Source: Bacteroidia bacterium
GTDB lineage: Bacteria > Bacteroidota > Bacteroidia > DATLTG01
Reading direction: 5' to 3'
DNA length: 48,784 nt
Assembly: GCA_039924845.1 (NCBI GenBank)
Contig: JBDTAC010000047.1
Span: forward strand, 1 to 48,784
In this document: in pieces, positions 2,012 through 9,634 of the stretch
How the letters are laid out: the number at the start of each line of letters is the position of its first letter
How positions within the stretch are numbered: the first letter of the stretch is position 1
Made by a program: the position numbers and the translations under genes
The notes under the pieces: model-generated
Database searches by the model: none
The model's input: only the letters and a program-made list of their open reading frames with translations
What the model was told of the DNA's origin: nothing

Positions 2012-4072
2012 TTATTTTTTAATCCATCGGATGAGCATTATTTCAGCCGCTAAAAATAAGAGGACTAAAATAATGCAAAGTTTCCAAAGTTTTTTTCCTT
2101 GTTCGTTTTCTGTTAAAACTTGTGTTAGATTTTTTGCTTGATTATTGATTAAAGAAAAGTTCACAAACCCTAATTTAGTTGTTTTTTCGGCGATTTCATC
2201 GGACGAATAACAACTCAAATCCGATTCTTTCCGATCGTAATTAAATGAAATGCTTTTCAAAATTTTATTCCCCAACCACAATTCATAATTACCGGCTTGC
2301 TTAATTTGATCGTGCACAAAAAGTGTCGTTCTGCCTTCTCCCTTGCGGTATTCAGGAATTACATCAAAATTAGTTCCGTTTTGTTTGATGTGAAAAACAT
2401 TGTCGCCCGTTAAATTAATTGTTTCCAAATCAATCGCATCGTCTTTGCCAATGGTGTAAAAAAGTGGCGTCGCTATTTCGCTGTTAATCGCAATATTATA
2501 TAATGTAGGCACAAATAAAGCGTGTTTCGCAATAGTGCTAAATCCGCTGCTGAAAGGCACTGCAGAAAGATATATTTTTCCTTTTCCGAAAACTGATTCA
2601 TTTAAAAATACATCTCCATTTTGCATTTTCAGCAACATATTTTCGTCGGAATGACTGTTTTTTGTGAGGGAATAATGATGAAAAACAATCGGTAAATCAA
2701 TATTGTCTGAATTTTTCTCAAATACATTTTTATAAATAGTACTTTCAAAATTAATATTTGAAATTTTTGTTTTTGCGGTATCTAAATTATTGTAATAATT
2801 GATATTGAATTCACTCAAAAAATCTCGATACGAATTCATTTTAATTTTCTCAGAAGGCACAATCAATAAGCTTCCGCCGTTATTCGTAAACTTTTTTAAT
2901 TCTTGCGCCAAACCAGAAGAAACCGAATCCAATTCGTTCAAAATAATTAATTTATTATCCGCAAACGAAGCGTAATTTAAATTGTTTTCATTCACCGAAT
3001 TAAACACAAAAAGCGAATCGTTTTTAAAAAACTTTTCGAGAAAATGATCGTCTTCGGAAATTATTTTTTCGGAAGCATTTATACACAACACCGGAATGTT
3101 TTTTTGCACTTCAAACGAAAAATAAAAATTATCATCAAACGTAATCGGATAATCGTTTATCTCGATTCGGCATTGCTGCATTCCCGTATCTTTCTGAGCA
3201 AAAGAAAGGCTTACATCACTTCTCGAATTGGCTGCTGCCGAAAAACTGGCGGGCGTTCTTTCTTTTTCATTGATAAATAATTTCATCGAATTATTTTCAA
3301 TCGCTGCTTTGGAAGCATTGCAAATACGCACATTTAATTTCTCCACTTCGCCCAATTGTCGCACTGGATCTGTAAATCCACAAGAATCGATGTAGGCATT
3401 GTTTGTTTGTTCCGCAATTGTCGGAATCAGCGTAACAGAAATGCTGGTGTCGTTTTTTATTTTTTCGAAATCAGTCGTGCTTTTTTGAAAATCAGAAATC
3501 AAAAATATTTTTTTGATTCGTACGGAGCTTTCATTCAATAAATCTGCTTGACGCGCAATGACTTCGTCCGTTGTTTTTACTGCAGGACTTATTTTCACAT
3601 CTTCCAACAATTCTCGAAATTGGTCTTTATTAATAAGCCTTTGCTGACTTCCTTCAAAATCATTTGTCAATAATTGAAAGCGATCAGTCGGTTTATATGC
3701 CTGAATAATTTCGAGTGCTTTTCGTTTGGATTCGTCCAACAAACTGCCACTTTTATTCATCGCATTCATGCTAAATGAATTGTCGATGTAAATGCTGATG
3801 GCTTTATCGCCTGTAATTATTTTTCCGTTTTTGTTAGGAATAAAAGGTTCCGCGAAAGCGAGTACTAAAAAAATCACCGCCAAAATGCGGCAAAGTAATA
3901 TCAATAAATTCCGTAAACGTGATTTAGATTGGGATTCTTGCTGTACTTCTCGTAAAAATTTAACGTTCGTGAAATATATTTTTTTGAATTTCCGAAAGTT
4001 GAAAAGATGAACAATGATGGGAATGGAAATCGCGGAAAGTGCGAAAAGAAAGAGTGGATTGACAAAGTTCAT
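2012..4072 (-). CDS. BatA-domain (aerotolerance N-terminal) membrane protein with vWA-like domain
   Basis: The N terminus has the double-membrane-span BatA/aerotolerance regulator signature: a hydrophobic helix at about 5-24, the IVHLFNFRKF basic stretch, and a second helix at about 57-77 ending in AEPFIP. A von Willebrand A-like domain follows, with a partial metal-site motif (YIDNSFSMNA, DxSxS-type with N in the middle). A long periplasmic-type region comes next, and a final helix with basic tail (LFLAAEIMLIRWIKK) closes the protein. These proteins are common in Bacteroidota, often without a defined role. I place the start at the ATG at 4072 rather than the upstream TTG: a TATATTTG -7 box ends only seven bases upstream, so the mRNA would start at or next to the ATG. 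Confidence 0.85.
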   Translation of the reverse strand: MNFVNPLFLFALSAISIPIIVHLFNFRKFKKIYFTNVKFLREVQQESQSKSRLRNLLILLCRILAVIFLVLAFAEPFIPNKNGKIITGDKAISIYIDNSFSMNAMNKSGSLLDESKRKALEIIQAYKPTDRFQLLTNDFEGSQQRLINKDQFRELLEDVKISPAVKTTDEVIARQADLLNESSVRIKKIFLISDFQKSTTDFEKIKNDTSISVTLIPTIAEQTNNAYIDSCGFTDPVRQLGEVEKLNVRICNASKAAIENNSMKLFINEKERTPASFSAAANSRSDVSLSFAQKDTGMQQCRIEINDYPITFDDNFYFSFEVQKNIPVLCINASEKIISEDDHFLEKFFKNDSLFVFNSVNENNLNYASFADNKLIILNELDSVSSGLAQELKKFTNNGGSLLIVPSEKIKMNSYRDFLSEFNINYYNNLDTAKTKISNINFESTIYKNVFEKNSDNIDLPIVFHHYSLTKNSHSDENMLLKMQNGDVFLNESVFGKGKIYLSAVPFSSGFSTIAKHALFVPTLYNIAINSEIATPLFYTIGKDDAIDLETINLTGDNVFHIKQNGTNFDVIPEYRKGEGRTTLFVHDQIKQAGNYELWLGNKILKSISFNYDRKESDLSCYSSDEIAEKTTKLGFVNFSLINNQAKNLTQVLTENEQGKKLWKLCIILVLLFLAAEIMLIRWIKK

Positions 4073-4079
4073 CAAGGAA

Positions 4080-4146: not shown

Positions 4147-4824
4147 TTAATCACGAAGTAAATCTGGTCTGCGGGTTTTTGTTCGCTCGATAGATTGCTC
4201 ATGTCGCCATTTGTCAATCTCTCGCTCGTTGCCAGAAAGTAGGATATCGGGTACTTTTAAACCTTTGTAATCTGCAGGGCGCGAATACACGGGTGGTGCA
4301 ATTAAATTATCTTGAAACGAATCGGAAAGAGCTGAGGTTTCATCCGAAATAACACCTGGAATTAAACGTACAATTGCGTCGCAAACGATTGCTGCTGCTA
4401 ATTCTCCACCCGACAAAACATAATCTCCCACCGAAATTTCCTTCGTAATAAAATACTGACGAATGCGCTCGTCAATGCCTTTGTAATGCCCGCAAAGCAA
4501 AATAATATTTTTGAATGTAGAAATCCGATTTGCCAGAGGTTGATTGAGTTTTTCGCCATCAGGGCTCATGTAAATCACTTCATCGTAAGCGCGTTCTGAT
4601 TTTAATTTTTCGATGCAATTGGCAAGCGGTTCCACCATCATCACCATTCCTGCGCCGCCACCGTAAGCGTAATCGTCCACTGTACGGTGTTTGTTAGTTG
4701 AAAAATCACGTAAGTCTATACAATTTATTTCCACCACTTTTTTTTCGATGGCGCGCTTTACAATCGAATGACTGAAAGGACTTTCGAACATTTGCGGAAA
4801 AAGAGTCAATATATCAATACGCAT
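4147..4824 (-). CDS. trmD: tRNA (guanine-37-N1)-methyltransferase TrmD
   Basis: TrmD methylates N1 of G37 next to the anticodon using S-adenosylmethionine, preventing +1 frameshifting. The 225-residue protein begins [13 protein letters not shown] and carries the trefoil-knot SAM-binding segments [13 protein letters not shown] and [11 protein letters not shown], followed by the linker and C-terminal tRNA-binding part with [15 protein letters not shown] and TRRPDLL. Length is normal for the family in this phylum. The frame is open upstream to a TTG at 4845, but that TTG lies inside the TAAATTTG -7 box (4843-4850), so the ATG at 4824 is the real start. Confidence 0.97.
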
Positions 4825-4842
4825 TTTAAAATTGTTGAAGGA

Positions 4843-4850
4843 CAAATTTA
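4843..4850 (-). promoter_or_regulatory. TAnnTTTG -7 box for trmD
   Basis: Minus-strand TAAATTTG matches the consensus and would place the transcription start about a dozen bases before the ATG at 4824. The A/T near-palindrome copy at 4864-4882 lies where the -33 element would be and offers TTTC rather than TTTG. Confidence 0.55.
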
Positions 4851-7922: not shown

Positions 7923-7930
7923 TATATTTG
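7923..7930 (+). promoter_or_regulatory. TAnnTTTG -7 box for the T9SS-sorted protein/rnz unit
   Basis: TATATTTG, ending 43 bases before the ATG at 7974. It is preceded by a long A-tract. It should drive the 7974 gene and, if the internal terminator in rnz is read through, rnz. Confidence 0.6.
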
Positions 7931-7973: not shown

Positions 7974-8720
7974 ATGATAAAAAAAATACTCTTACTTATT
8001 GTTTCTGTTGCATTTGTTGGTTTAACCAATTCAAACGCACAATGTACTCCTGGTCCGCAAACAGCAGGCGGAATTTATCCCGATAGCGCGCAGGGATTAC
8101 CGAATGGTTTTGTAGGTACCGCTTATGCTACTACCATGACGGTTGTTGTTCCTACGGACACAGTTGTTTCAGGTATTCCCATTCCGATTGACTCTTTAGT
8201 ATTGATTAATTTTACCGGATTTCCTCCCGTGGGTGGCTTCACTTATATTTGTAACCCTAACCATTGCTCTTGGAAAGGCGGAACAAAAGGCTGTGTGCTT
8301 ATTTCAGGAAACCCGACCGTTGCAGATACGGGAACGTGGCATTTATCAGCTACTGTAAATGCTTATATAGGTGGATCTGGTACTCCAATTCCGGAACATA
8401 TCAATTATTATAAAATAAAAATATTGAACGCTACCGGCATTGCAACATTAGATATGACAAAATTTGAGGTAGGACAAAATAGTCCGAACCCTTTTACACA
8501 AACAACCAAAATTATTTTTACTATGCCGACTGTTGCGCCGATGACTTTATCCGTGTATAACGTGTTGGGTACTTTAATAATGCAATCTAAATTTCAAGCA
8601 GAAAAAGGATATAATTCTTACGAGTTATCAGCCAACGATTTTCCTTCTGGAATTTATATGTATTCATTAAATAACGGAAAAACGAGCATCACCAAACGGA
8701 TGATTGTTGCTGGAAAATAA
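7974..8720 (+). CDS. Secreted protein with C-terminal type IX secretion sorting domain
   Basis: A clear signal peptide (IKKILLLIVSVAFVGLTNSNAQ) precedes a beta-rich body of about 140 residues with two cysteine-containing stretches (FTYICNPNHCSW and GGTKGCVLIS). The last 80 residues form a type A T9SS sorting domain: it opens with QNSPNPF, contains SVYNVLGTLI, and ends SGIYMYSLNNGKTSITKRMIV. Such proteins cross the outer membrane through the Por/Spr machinery, lose the C-terminal domain and are often attached to the surface. The body resembles an Ig-like/cadherin-like fold but I cannot assign a binding activity. The stop codon overlaps the rnz ATG by one base (TAATG). Confidence 0.88.
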   Translation: MIKKILLLIVSVAFVGLTNSNAQCTPGPQTAGGIYPDSAQGLPNGFVGTAYATTMTVVVPTDTVVSGIPIPIDSLVLINFTGFPPVGGFTYICNPNHCSWKGGTKGCVLISGNPTVADTGTWHLSATVNAYIGGSGTPIPEHINYYKIKILNATGIATLDMTKFEVGQNSPNPFTQTTKIIFTMPTVAPMTLSVYNVLGTLIMQSKFQAEKGYNSYELSANDFPSGIYMYSLNNGKTSITKRMIVAGK

Positions 8721-9634
8721 TGCATCCTTTTGATATTACTATTTTAGGTTGTAGTTCTGCAACACCCACTTCTAAACGTAACCCAACCGCTCAGCTTGTC
8801 AATCATGCTGAGCGGTTTTTTTTGATTGATTGTGCCGAAGCGACGCAAATTCAATTGCGCAAATTCAAAATAAAGTTTCAACGGATCAACCATATTTTTA
8901 TCAGTCATTTGCATGGCGATCATTACCTCGGTTTACCCGGATTGCTCGCCAGTATGCACTTATTGGGCAGAACCAACGATTTACATATTTATGCGCAAGC
9001 GGAACTGCAAGAAATCATCGAGATAAATTACAAACATTCCGATACGAGATTGAATTATAAAATCGTCTATCATCCACTGAAATACGATAAAAGCGAAATT
9101 ATTTATGAAGATGAAAAACTTTTTGTCTCTACCATTATTCTCAATCACCGAGTTCCGTGTTGCGGATTTATTTTCAGCGAAAAAGAAAATCAACGGAATA
9201 TTATTAAAGAAAAAATAGAAGAATATTCCATTCCCGTTTCTGAAATAAATAACATTAAAAGCGGAGCAGATTATATTTGTGAAGATGGAAAAATAATTTT
9301 GAATGCGGCACTTACGCTGGATTCTTTTCCTACCAGAAAATATGCCTATTGTTCCGATACTTGTTACGATGAATCCATTATTGAACAAATAAAAAAAGTA
9401 GATCTATTGTATCACGAAGCTACGTTTATGCAAAATATGTTGGCGAGAGCGAAAGCTACTTTCCATTCTACCGCCGCGCAAGCAGGCGAAATAGCGCTGA
9501 AAGCAGAAGTGAAACAGTTGATTATTGGACATTATTCGGCACGTTACAAAGAGTTAGAACCTTTATTAGCCGAGGCAAAAAATATTTTTTCGAACACTGT
9601 TTTGGCTGTGGAAGGTGAAAAATATTTTGTTTGA
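8720..9634 (+). CDS. rnz: Ribonuclease Z
   Basis: RNase Z removes the 3' trailer of tRNA precursors. The 304-residue protein begins with the beta-lactamase-fold strand ITILGCSSATP, then LIDCAEATQ, the zinc motif SHLHGDHYLGLPG (HxHxDH), YCSDTCYDE, YHEATF, and the C-terminal GHYSARY block. Length is standard. The ATG shares a base with the stop codon of the T9SS-sorted gene, so translational coupling is likely. Codons about 22-35 coincide with a perfect 11-bp hairpin followed by eight T (8785-8823); the encoded residues there fit the family, so the ORF is genuine. The stop codon lies in a near-palindrome copy at 9631-9649. Confidence 0.97.
   Translation: MHPFDITILGCSSATPTSKRNPTAQLVNHAERFFLIDCAEATQIQLRKFKIKFQRINHIFISHLHGDHYLGLPGLLASMHLLGRTNDLHIYAQAELQEIIEINYKHSDTRLNYKIVYHPLKYDKSEIIYEDEKLFVSTIILNHRVPCCGFIFSEKENQRNIIKEKIEEYSIPVSEINNIKSGADYICEDGKIILNAALTLDSFPTRKYAYCSDTCYDESIIEQIKKVDLLYHEATFMQNMLARAKATFHSTAAQAGEIALKAEVKQLIIGHYSARYKELEPLLAEAKNIFSNTVLAVEGEKYFV
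8785..8823 (+). terminator. Intrinsic-terminator structure inside the rnz coding region
   Basis: AACCGCTCAGC (8785-8795) pairs exactly with GCTGAGCGGTT (8807-8817) around an 11-base loop; eight T follow (8816-8823). Among the strongest GC stems in the window, it has the textbook form yet sits 65-104 bases inside rnz. It is placed to end most transcripts of the upstream T9SS-sorted gene, with rnz expressed by readthrough, perhaps when translating ribosomes block the hairpin. Function is inferred; the structure is seen directly. Confidence 0.7.

Follow-up and report, generated by a model that had tools for sequence, protein, structure and literature searches.

The window analysed here is the whole 48,784-nucleotide stretch of contig JBDTAC010000047.1 (GenBank assembly GCA_039924845.1), from a Bacteroidia genome of 2.66 Mb. 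It contains rnz and, directly upstream in the same orientation, a gene predicted to encode a secreted protein with a type 9 secretion system (T9SS) sorting domain (Table 1). The genomes used here are unannotated, and rnz and its neighbors were identified by similarity and open reading frames. A first-pass annotation of this DNA had stated that the encoded residues fit RNase Z and that the end of the upstream gene overlaps the rnz start codon. Both statements hold: rnz scores above the NCBIfam cut-offs for RNase Z, and the TAA stop codon of the upstream gene (8718-8720) shares one base with the ATG at 8720.

The upstream gene belongs to an uncharacterized T9SS-secreted family of approximately 250 aa that recurs directly before rnz at 70 related loci across Bacteroidia; its N-terminal part has no Pfam match and carries a CNPxHCxWKGG-like motif. 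The candidate promoter element TAnnTTTG was found upstream of this family at 19 of the 70 loci, with 6.2 expected. Codon adaptation among the 35 genes of the window ranks the secreted-protein gene 14th, which is middling, and rnz 30th, giving no indication of unusually high expression. Elsewhere in the window, a 21-base unit (TCTTTGTTTGCTTACAATGAC) is repeated about 15 times at positions 237-585, and the array has a higher-order period of 63 bases. On the minus strand, another hairpin resembling a terminator (TTGCCGCATTTTGGCGGTGA, then TTTTTTT) lies at 3893-3874, about 180 bases into a BatA-domain gene (2012-4075, minus) that comes just after a trmD-like gene (4147-4845, minus). This hairpin is possibly another in-gene terminator, weaker than the one in rnz.

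Table 1. Features of the rnz locus in the window.
Feature	Position	Strand	Basis
Candidate promoter -7 element TAnnTTTG (TATATTTG) of the secreted-protein gene	7923-7930	+	Consensus match 51 nt before the start; predicted
Upstream gene, 248-aa secreted protein with T9SS C-terminal sorting domain	7974-8720	+	TIGR04183/PF18962
rnz, RNase Z, 304 aa, containing the putative terminator	8720-9634	+	NCBIfam NF000801 and TIGR02651 above cut-off
Stem of the putative terminator, 5' arm, AACCGCTCAGC, rnz codons 22-26	8785-8795	+	Exact complement of 8807-8817; covaries with the 3' arm across Bacteroidia
Loop TTGTCAATCAT	8796-8806	+	Folds as a U-U mismatch, 2 bp and a 5-nt loop; codons 26-28 without synonymous constraint
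Stem of the putative terminator, 3' arm, GCTGAGCGGTT, codons 30-33	8807-8817	+	Uncommon Arg codon CGG and Glu codon GAG kept
T-run (U-tract), TTTTTTTT, coding for Phe-Phe-Leu	8816-8823	+	Mean T content and TTT bias in hairpin-bearing rnz

Positions 8785-8823 read AACCGCTCAGC - TTGTCAATCAT - GCTGAGCGGTT followed by TTTTTT. The description given in the first-pass annotation, a GC-rich stem of 11 bp and eight T located 65 bases after the rnz start, was confirmed as written. The stem is exact, 7 of its 11 pairs are G-C, it begins 65 nt past the rnz ATG, and two of the eight T at 8816-8823 belong to it. Together, hairpin and T-run span rnz codons 22-35. The RNA is predicted to fold at -21.6 kcal/mol (z = -5.4; none of 200 shuffles was equally stable), and the hairpins of relatives fold at -20 to -24 kcal/mol. 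The stem sequence occurs a single time in the 2.66-Mb genome. Two characteristics of an intrinsic terminator are present, a stable GC-rich hairpin and a U-tract directly 3' of the stem. Just 5' of the stem, codons 20 and 22 of hairpin-bearing rnz genes (8777-8779 and 8783-8785 in the window) favor codons that end in A (AGA, CCA), which may form an A-tract facing the U-tract.

We compared the corresponding 57 bases, codons 21-39, of 88 Bacteroidia rnz genes. Many genes with an N-terminal part only about 50-84% identical carry the same stem at the same codons, and others have no stem at all. The carriers include relatives throughout the class that share no more than roughly 50-70% protein identity. 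The usual form in relatives is ACCGCTCAG...CTGAGCGGTTTTTTTT, with as many as 14 bp closed by five loop bases, for example TTAAT or TAAAT. We aligned 30 carriers or near-carriers and found double-sided changes at 10 of the 14 pairs. In the same alignment 90% of cells are paired, a percentage biased upward because the 30 genes were picked for having the stem; none of 500 shuffles came near it, and sliding the partner by 1-3 columns left 28-41% paired. The double changes and the synonymous and codon tests are fairer evidence than the percentage paired. Some of the compensation runs across the protein code, as where a synonymous change of Ala GCT to GCC is offset by Glu GAG becoming Gly GGG (L127, L133). 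Among the outcomes that the first-pass annotation had named as counting against its terminator was the lack of a conserved or compensatory stem in relatives; the stem proved to be conserved and to covary, which favors a terminator.

As a synonymous null, each gene was randomly recoded with its own protein and its own codon usage, and a stem was counted when eight or more of the nine outer pairs formed. Recoding of the 88 rnz genes predicted 0.18 stems and 25 were observed, although these are not 25 independent events because the genes are related. The 11-bp run of the window was not reproduced once in 20,000 synonymous recodings. When stem conservation was set against conservation at synonymous sites, excess codon identity between distant carriers was confined to codons 22-25 and 29-35, the two arms and the T-run. 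The excess is zero at loop codons 26-28 and absent from rnz genes without the hairpin, and elsewhere in rnz the similarity at synonymous sites is lost at the divergence of the carriers. The hairpin is real and no accident of codon choice.

The pattern of substitutions was then used to ask about strand. At the stem positions of 72 carriers there are 56 G-U and 18 A-C combinations, versus 75 and 155 at the same positions of 68 non-carriers. G-U thus exceeds A-C only in hairpin-bearing genes, indicating the sense RNA as the acting molecule. The eight bases after the stem core contain a mean of 7.7 T in hairpin-bearing rnz versus 5.7 in the others. Phe33 and Phe34 of carriers are encoded by TTT 128 times and by TTC three times, against a TTT share of 73% in the rest of those genes; at Leu35, 69 of the 72 have TTA or TTG (comparison figure, approximately 49%). 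An intrinsic terminator is expected to look like this, with a stem and a selected U-tract in the sense RNA.

A search of 395 Bacteroidia genomes with a covariance model of the element matched 134 of them at E 0.01, 67 at or above 45 bits. All 67 of these matches lie inside rnz at the same codons; of the matches that could be placed outside rnz, the best reaches 33.8 bits. In a wider sample of the phylum, none scored above 34 bits apart from the window. No Rfam family matched the element, the best score being 21.8 bits versus a gathering score of 59. A general repeat was considered and rejected, the exact pattern CCGCTCA..TGAGCGGTTTTT occurring in only four of 296 genomes of the phylum. Strict carriers with named records include Marinilabiliales, Bacteroidales, Flavobacteriales, and Saprospirales. 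On an rnz tree built without the hairpin region, using a simple model and with many weak inner branches, the hairpin is patchy, requiring at least 25-27 changes by parsimony, nine of them forced by well-supported branches.

By sequence, three main families occur directly upstream of rnz: the T9SS secreted protein at 70 loci, a STAS-domain protein at 52, and ribosomal protein S1 at 4, the last encoded by rpsA, a highly expressed gene. Members of the secreted-protein family were grouped by similarity including the sorting domain, and all 70 stayed together when the sorting tail was removed. The rnz tree implies no fewer than 16 switches in the class of the neighboring gene. Perfect stems occur in five STAS carriers whose gene order is rpsA-STAS-rnz. 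At most other STAS loci different genes precede STAS, often pyrB-like (pyrB being read from the sequence start). The order rpsA-STAS-rnz was seen at L051, L052, L056, L070, and L125, and L080 has rpsA, one further gene, and rnz. We defined a strict hairpin as one with all core pairs formed and at least six T. It is present in 58 of 82 rnz genes behind a T9SS gene or rpsA, versus none of 47 behind STAS without rpsA. Because some carriers had been found via the hairpin itself, a separate count was made with loci found by rnz protein similarity alone and free of selection on the hairpin, which gave 13 of 26 versus 0 of 40 (p = 5e-7, kinship ignored).

Among independent switches of the upstream gene on the tree, the hairpin follows the gene in 4-6 of 8 pairs and is opposed to it in none; a tree-aware sign test is borderline (median p 0.0625) because well-supported switches are few. 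Within one genus (g20), members behind the secreted-protein gene mostly have a full stem, and in those behind STAS the third pair is broken, with CGT for CGG, and the fold is -14.4 kcal/mol versus about -22 to -24. Where a gap precedes rnz at one T9SS locus (L050) and two rpsA loci (L061 and L067), an ordinary T-tailed terminator lies in the gap and the rnz stem is weak or missing. The stem begins a median of 64 nt past the upstream stop codon. The association has exceptions: 24 of the 82 loci with a T9SS gene or rpsA upstream are without a strict hairpin, several of them showing no other terminator, and at one locus (L008) the hairpin is present even though about 108 nt separate the genes. 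These comparisons suggest that the putative stop signal is kept mainly where the upstream gene is the secreted-protein gene or rpsA, across many distant Bacteroidia relatives.

Other roles for the hairpin were weighed against these observations. It is possible, though we doubt it, that the element is a regulated attenuator of rnz in which readthrough senses early translation of rnz or the action of RNase Z on its own mRNA. Any full-length rnz mRNA must cross the hairpin, the overlapping start codon makes a coupling to translation natural, and the element always lies in rnz regardless of the upstream gene. However, its presence tracks the upstream gene and not rnz alone, codons 4-18 show no excess conservation over hairpin-less genes that would suggest an antiterminator fold 5' of the stem, and the present data give no sign of regulation. 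We consider it improbable that the hairpin has a stabilizing role at the upstream mRNA's 3' end or labels a site for processing, for instance by mimicking the tRNA acceptor and T arm as a substrate of RNase Z. Some RNases control their own mRNA, and a 14-bp stem with a 5-nt loop is close in size to an acceptor-T minihelix, but the selected T-run is a hallmark of terminators that neither a stabilizer nor a substrate needs, and the gaps described above hold ordinary T-tailed terminators. The loop is encoded by Leu-Asn, has no T-loop consensus, and its codons are under no extra constraint. Judged by inspection, a stem of 14 bp with a 5-nt loop does not match a tRNA minihelix with a 12-bp stem and a 7-nt T-loop of the TTCRANY type, and this candidate was rejected.

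An operator bound by a dimeric protein would account for an inverted repeat with conserved outer bases CCGCTCA/TGAGCGG, yet the inner pairs vary freely among GC, CG, UA, and AU provided that pairing holds, G-U is preferred over A-C on the sense strand, the T-run is one-sided, and the pattern is very rare elsewhere in the genomes; a DNA palindrome of this kind is therefore very improbable. We give equally little credence to the idea that the hairpin stimulates programmed slippage of the transcribing polymerase on the T-run. Eight or nine T after a hairpin in the nascent RNA is a site where polymerase can slip, but the shifted frames are short, with medians of 3 or 11 codons, and do not exceed those of hairpin-less genes in length; slippage was rejected since these frames are not conserved. 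A coincidence of conserved residues (T-A-Q-x-L-N-x-x-E-R-F-F-L) and codon usage, with no nucleic-acid element at all, has next to no chance of being correct. The residues do belong to the conserved N-terminus of RNase Z and are partly present in hairpin-less genes. Such a coincidence is refuted by the covariation, by the gap between stems observed and expected under synonymous recoding, and by the profile of codon conservation, and some compensatory changes alter the protein.

Based on the sequence comparisons, the element is very probably an intrinsic (Rho-independent) terminator of the upstream gene, embedded in rnz codons 22-35 because the two genes abut and leave no other room, with rnz expressed from readthrough. 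It would belong to the upstream transcription unit, here the T9SS gene and in other lineages rpsA or rpsA-STAS. A fraction of the polymerases coming out of the upstream gene is predicted to halt at about 8820-8824, so that termination would occur at the hairpin in vivo and rnz would be expressed at a lower level than the upstream gene. The element may exist to shield rnz from strong upstream transcription. Full-length rnz mRNA would come solely from readthrough since the rnz start precedes the hairpin. The median distance of 64 bases from the upstream stop would give the stem room to form once the upstream ribosomes are gone. Strong comparative support for a selected terminator, one that would stop upstream transcripts and restrict rnz as the first-pass annotation had proposed, comes from the covariation, the T-run, the sense bias, the dependence on the upstream gene, and the intergenic replacement.

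A ribosome that starts rnz at the overlapping ATG could cover the 5' arm and favor readthrough, and we put the chances that ribosomes entering in this way raise readthrough at about even. More tentatively, the terminator might act as a translation-gated switch passed only by polymerases with an rnz ribosome close behind, such that the supply of RNase Z, which matures tRNA, reports on translation and on its coupling to transcription in Bacteroidia; we think this rather unlikely. Bacteroidota are absent from the phyla classed as having runaway transcription (PMC13323073), making such a gate possible. The further proposal in the first-pass annotation, that ribosomes reinitiating at the overlapping start cover the hairpin and make rnz expression depend on translation, is plausible; it fits the anatomy and the finding that codon conservation gives no sign of an antiterminator.

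The element resembles known intrinsic terminators in its GC-rich stem, short loop, immediate U-tract, and position about 60-70 nt past the upstream stop. Unlike the usual ones, it is contained entirely in the next gene's coding sequence, where codon choice and even amino acid changes preserve it. Partial terminators within operons set expression ratios between neighbors and are usually intergenic. The rnz element would likewise allow a strong first gene and a weakly expressed second gene, but here there is no intergenic space and rnz itself must be read through. Attenuation by leader peptides, as in trp, depends on translation. In the rnz element, too, a ribosome could decide whether the terminator forms; by contrast with the trp type, there is no leader peptide, codon conservation gave no sign of an antiterminator, and the translated gene would be the regulated one.

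Transcripts ending within genes have been described before. Excerpts of the published reports place RNA 3' ends inside open reading frames in Escherichia coli, with intrinsic termination suggested for at least one (PMC7815308), and in Borrelia burgdorferi, one example being 148 nt into potB, the primary start site of potB lying inside potA (PMC10319736). Such in-gene ends are thus not new as such. In the excerpts of both papers (PMC7815308, PMC10319736) these ends are experimental, come from a single organism each, and are not tied to a conserved covarying hairpin, whereas the rnz element is conserved class-wide and is known here from sequence alone. Among open-license papers, the literature contained no report of the rnz element or of a class-wide conserved covarying terminator inside the following gene. 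The rnz element is a conserved, context-dependent variant of known in-gene termination.

Pipelines that leave coding sequence out of searches for terminators or structured RNAs would miss such elements. The family also offers a natural experiment, the putative stop being present with one type of upstream neighbor and absent with another, and a test of the coupling of transcription and translation in Bacteroidota: if ribosomes closely follow polymerase, translation of rnz should suppress the terminator. In these bacteria the coding sequence of rnz appears to carry a second selected message, the transcription stop of its neighbor, written through codon choice and paired amino acid changes.
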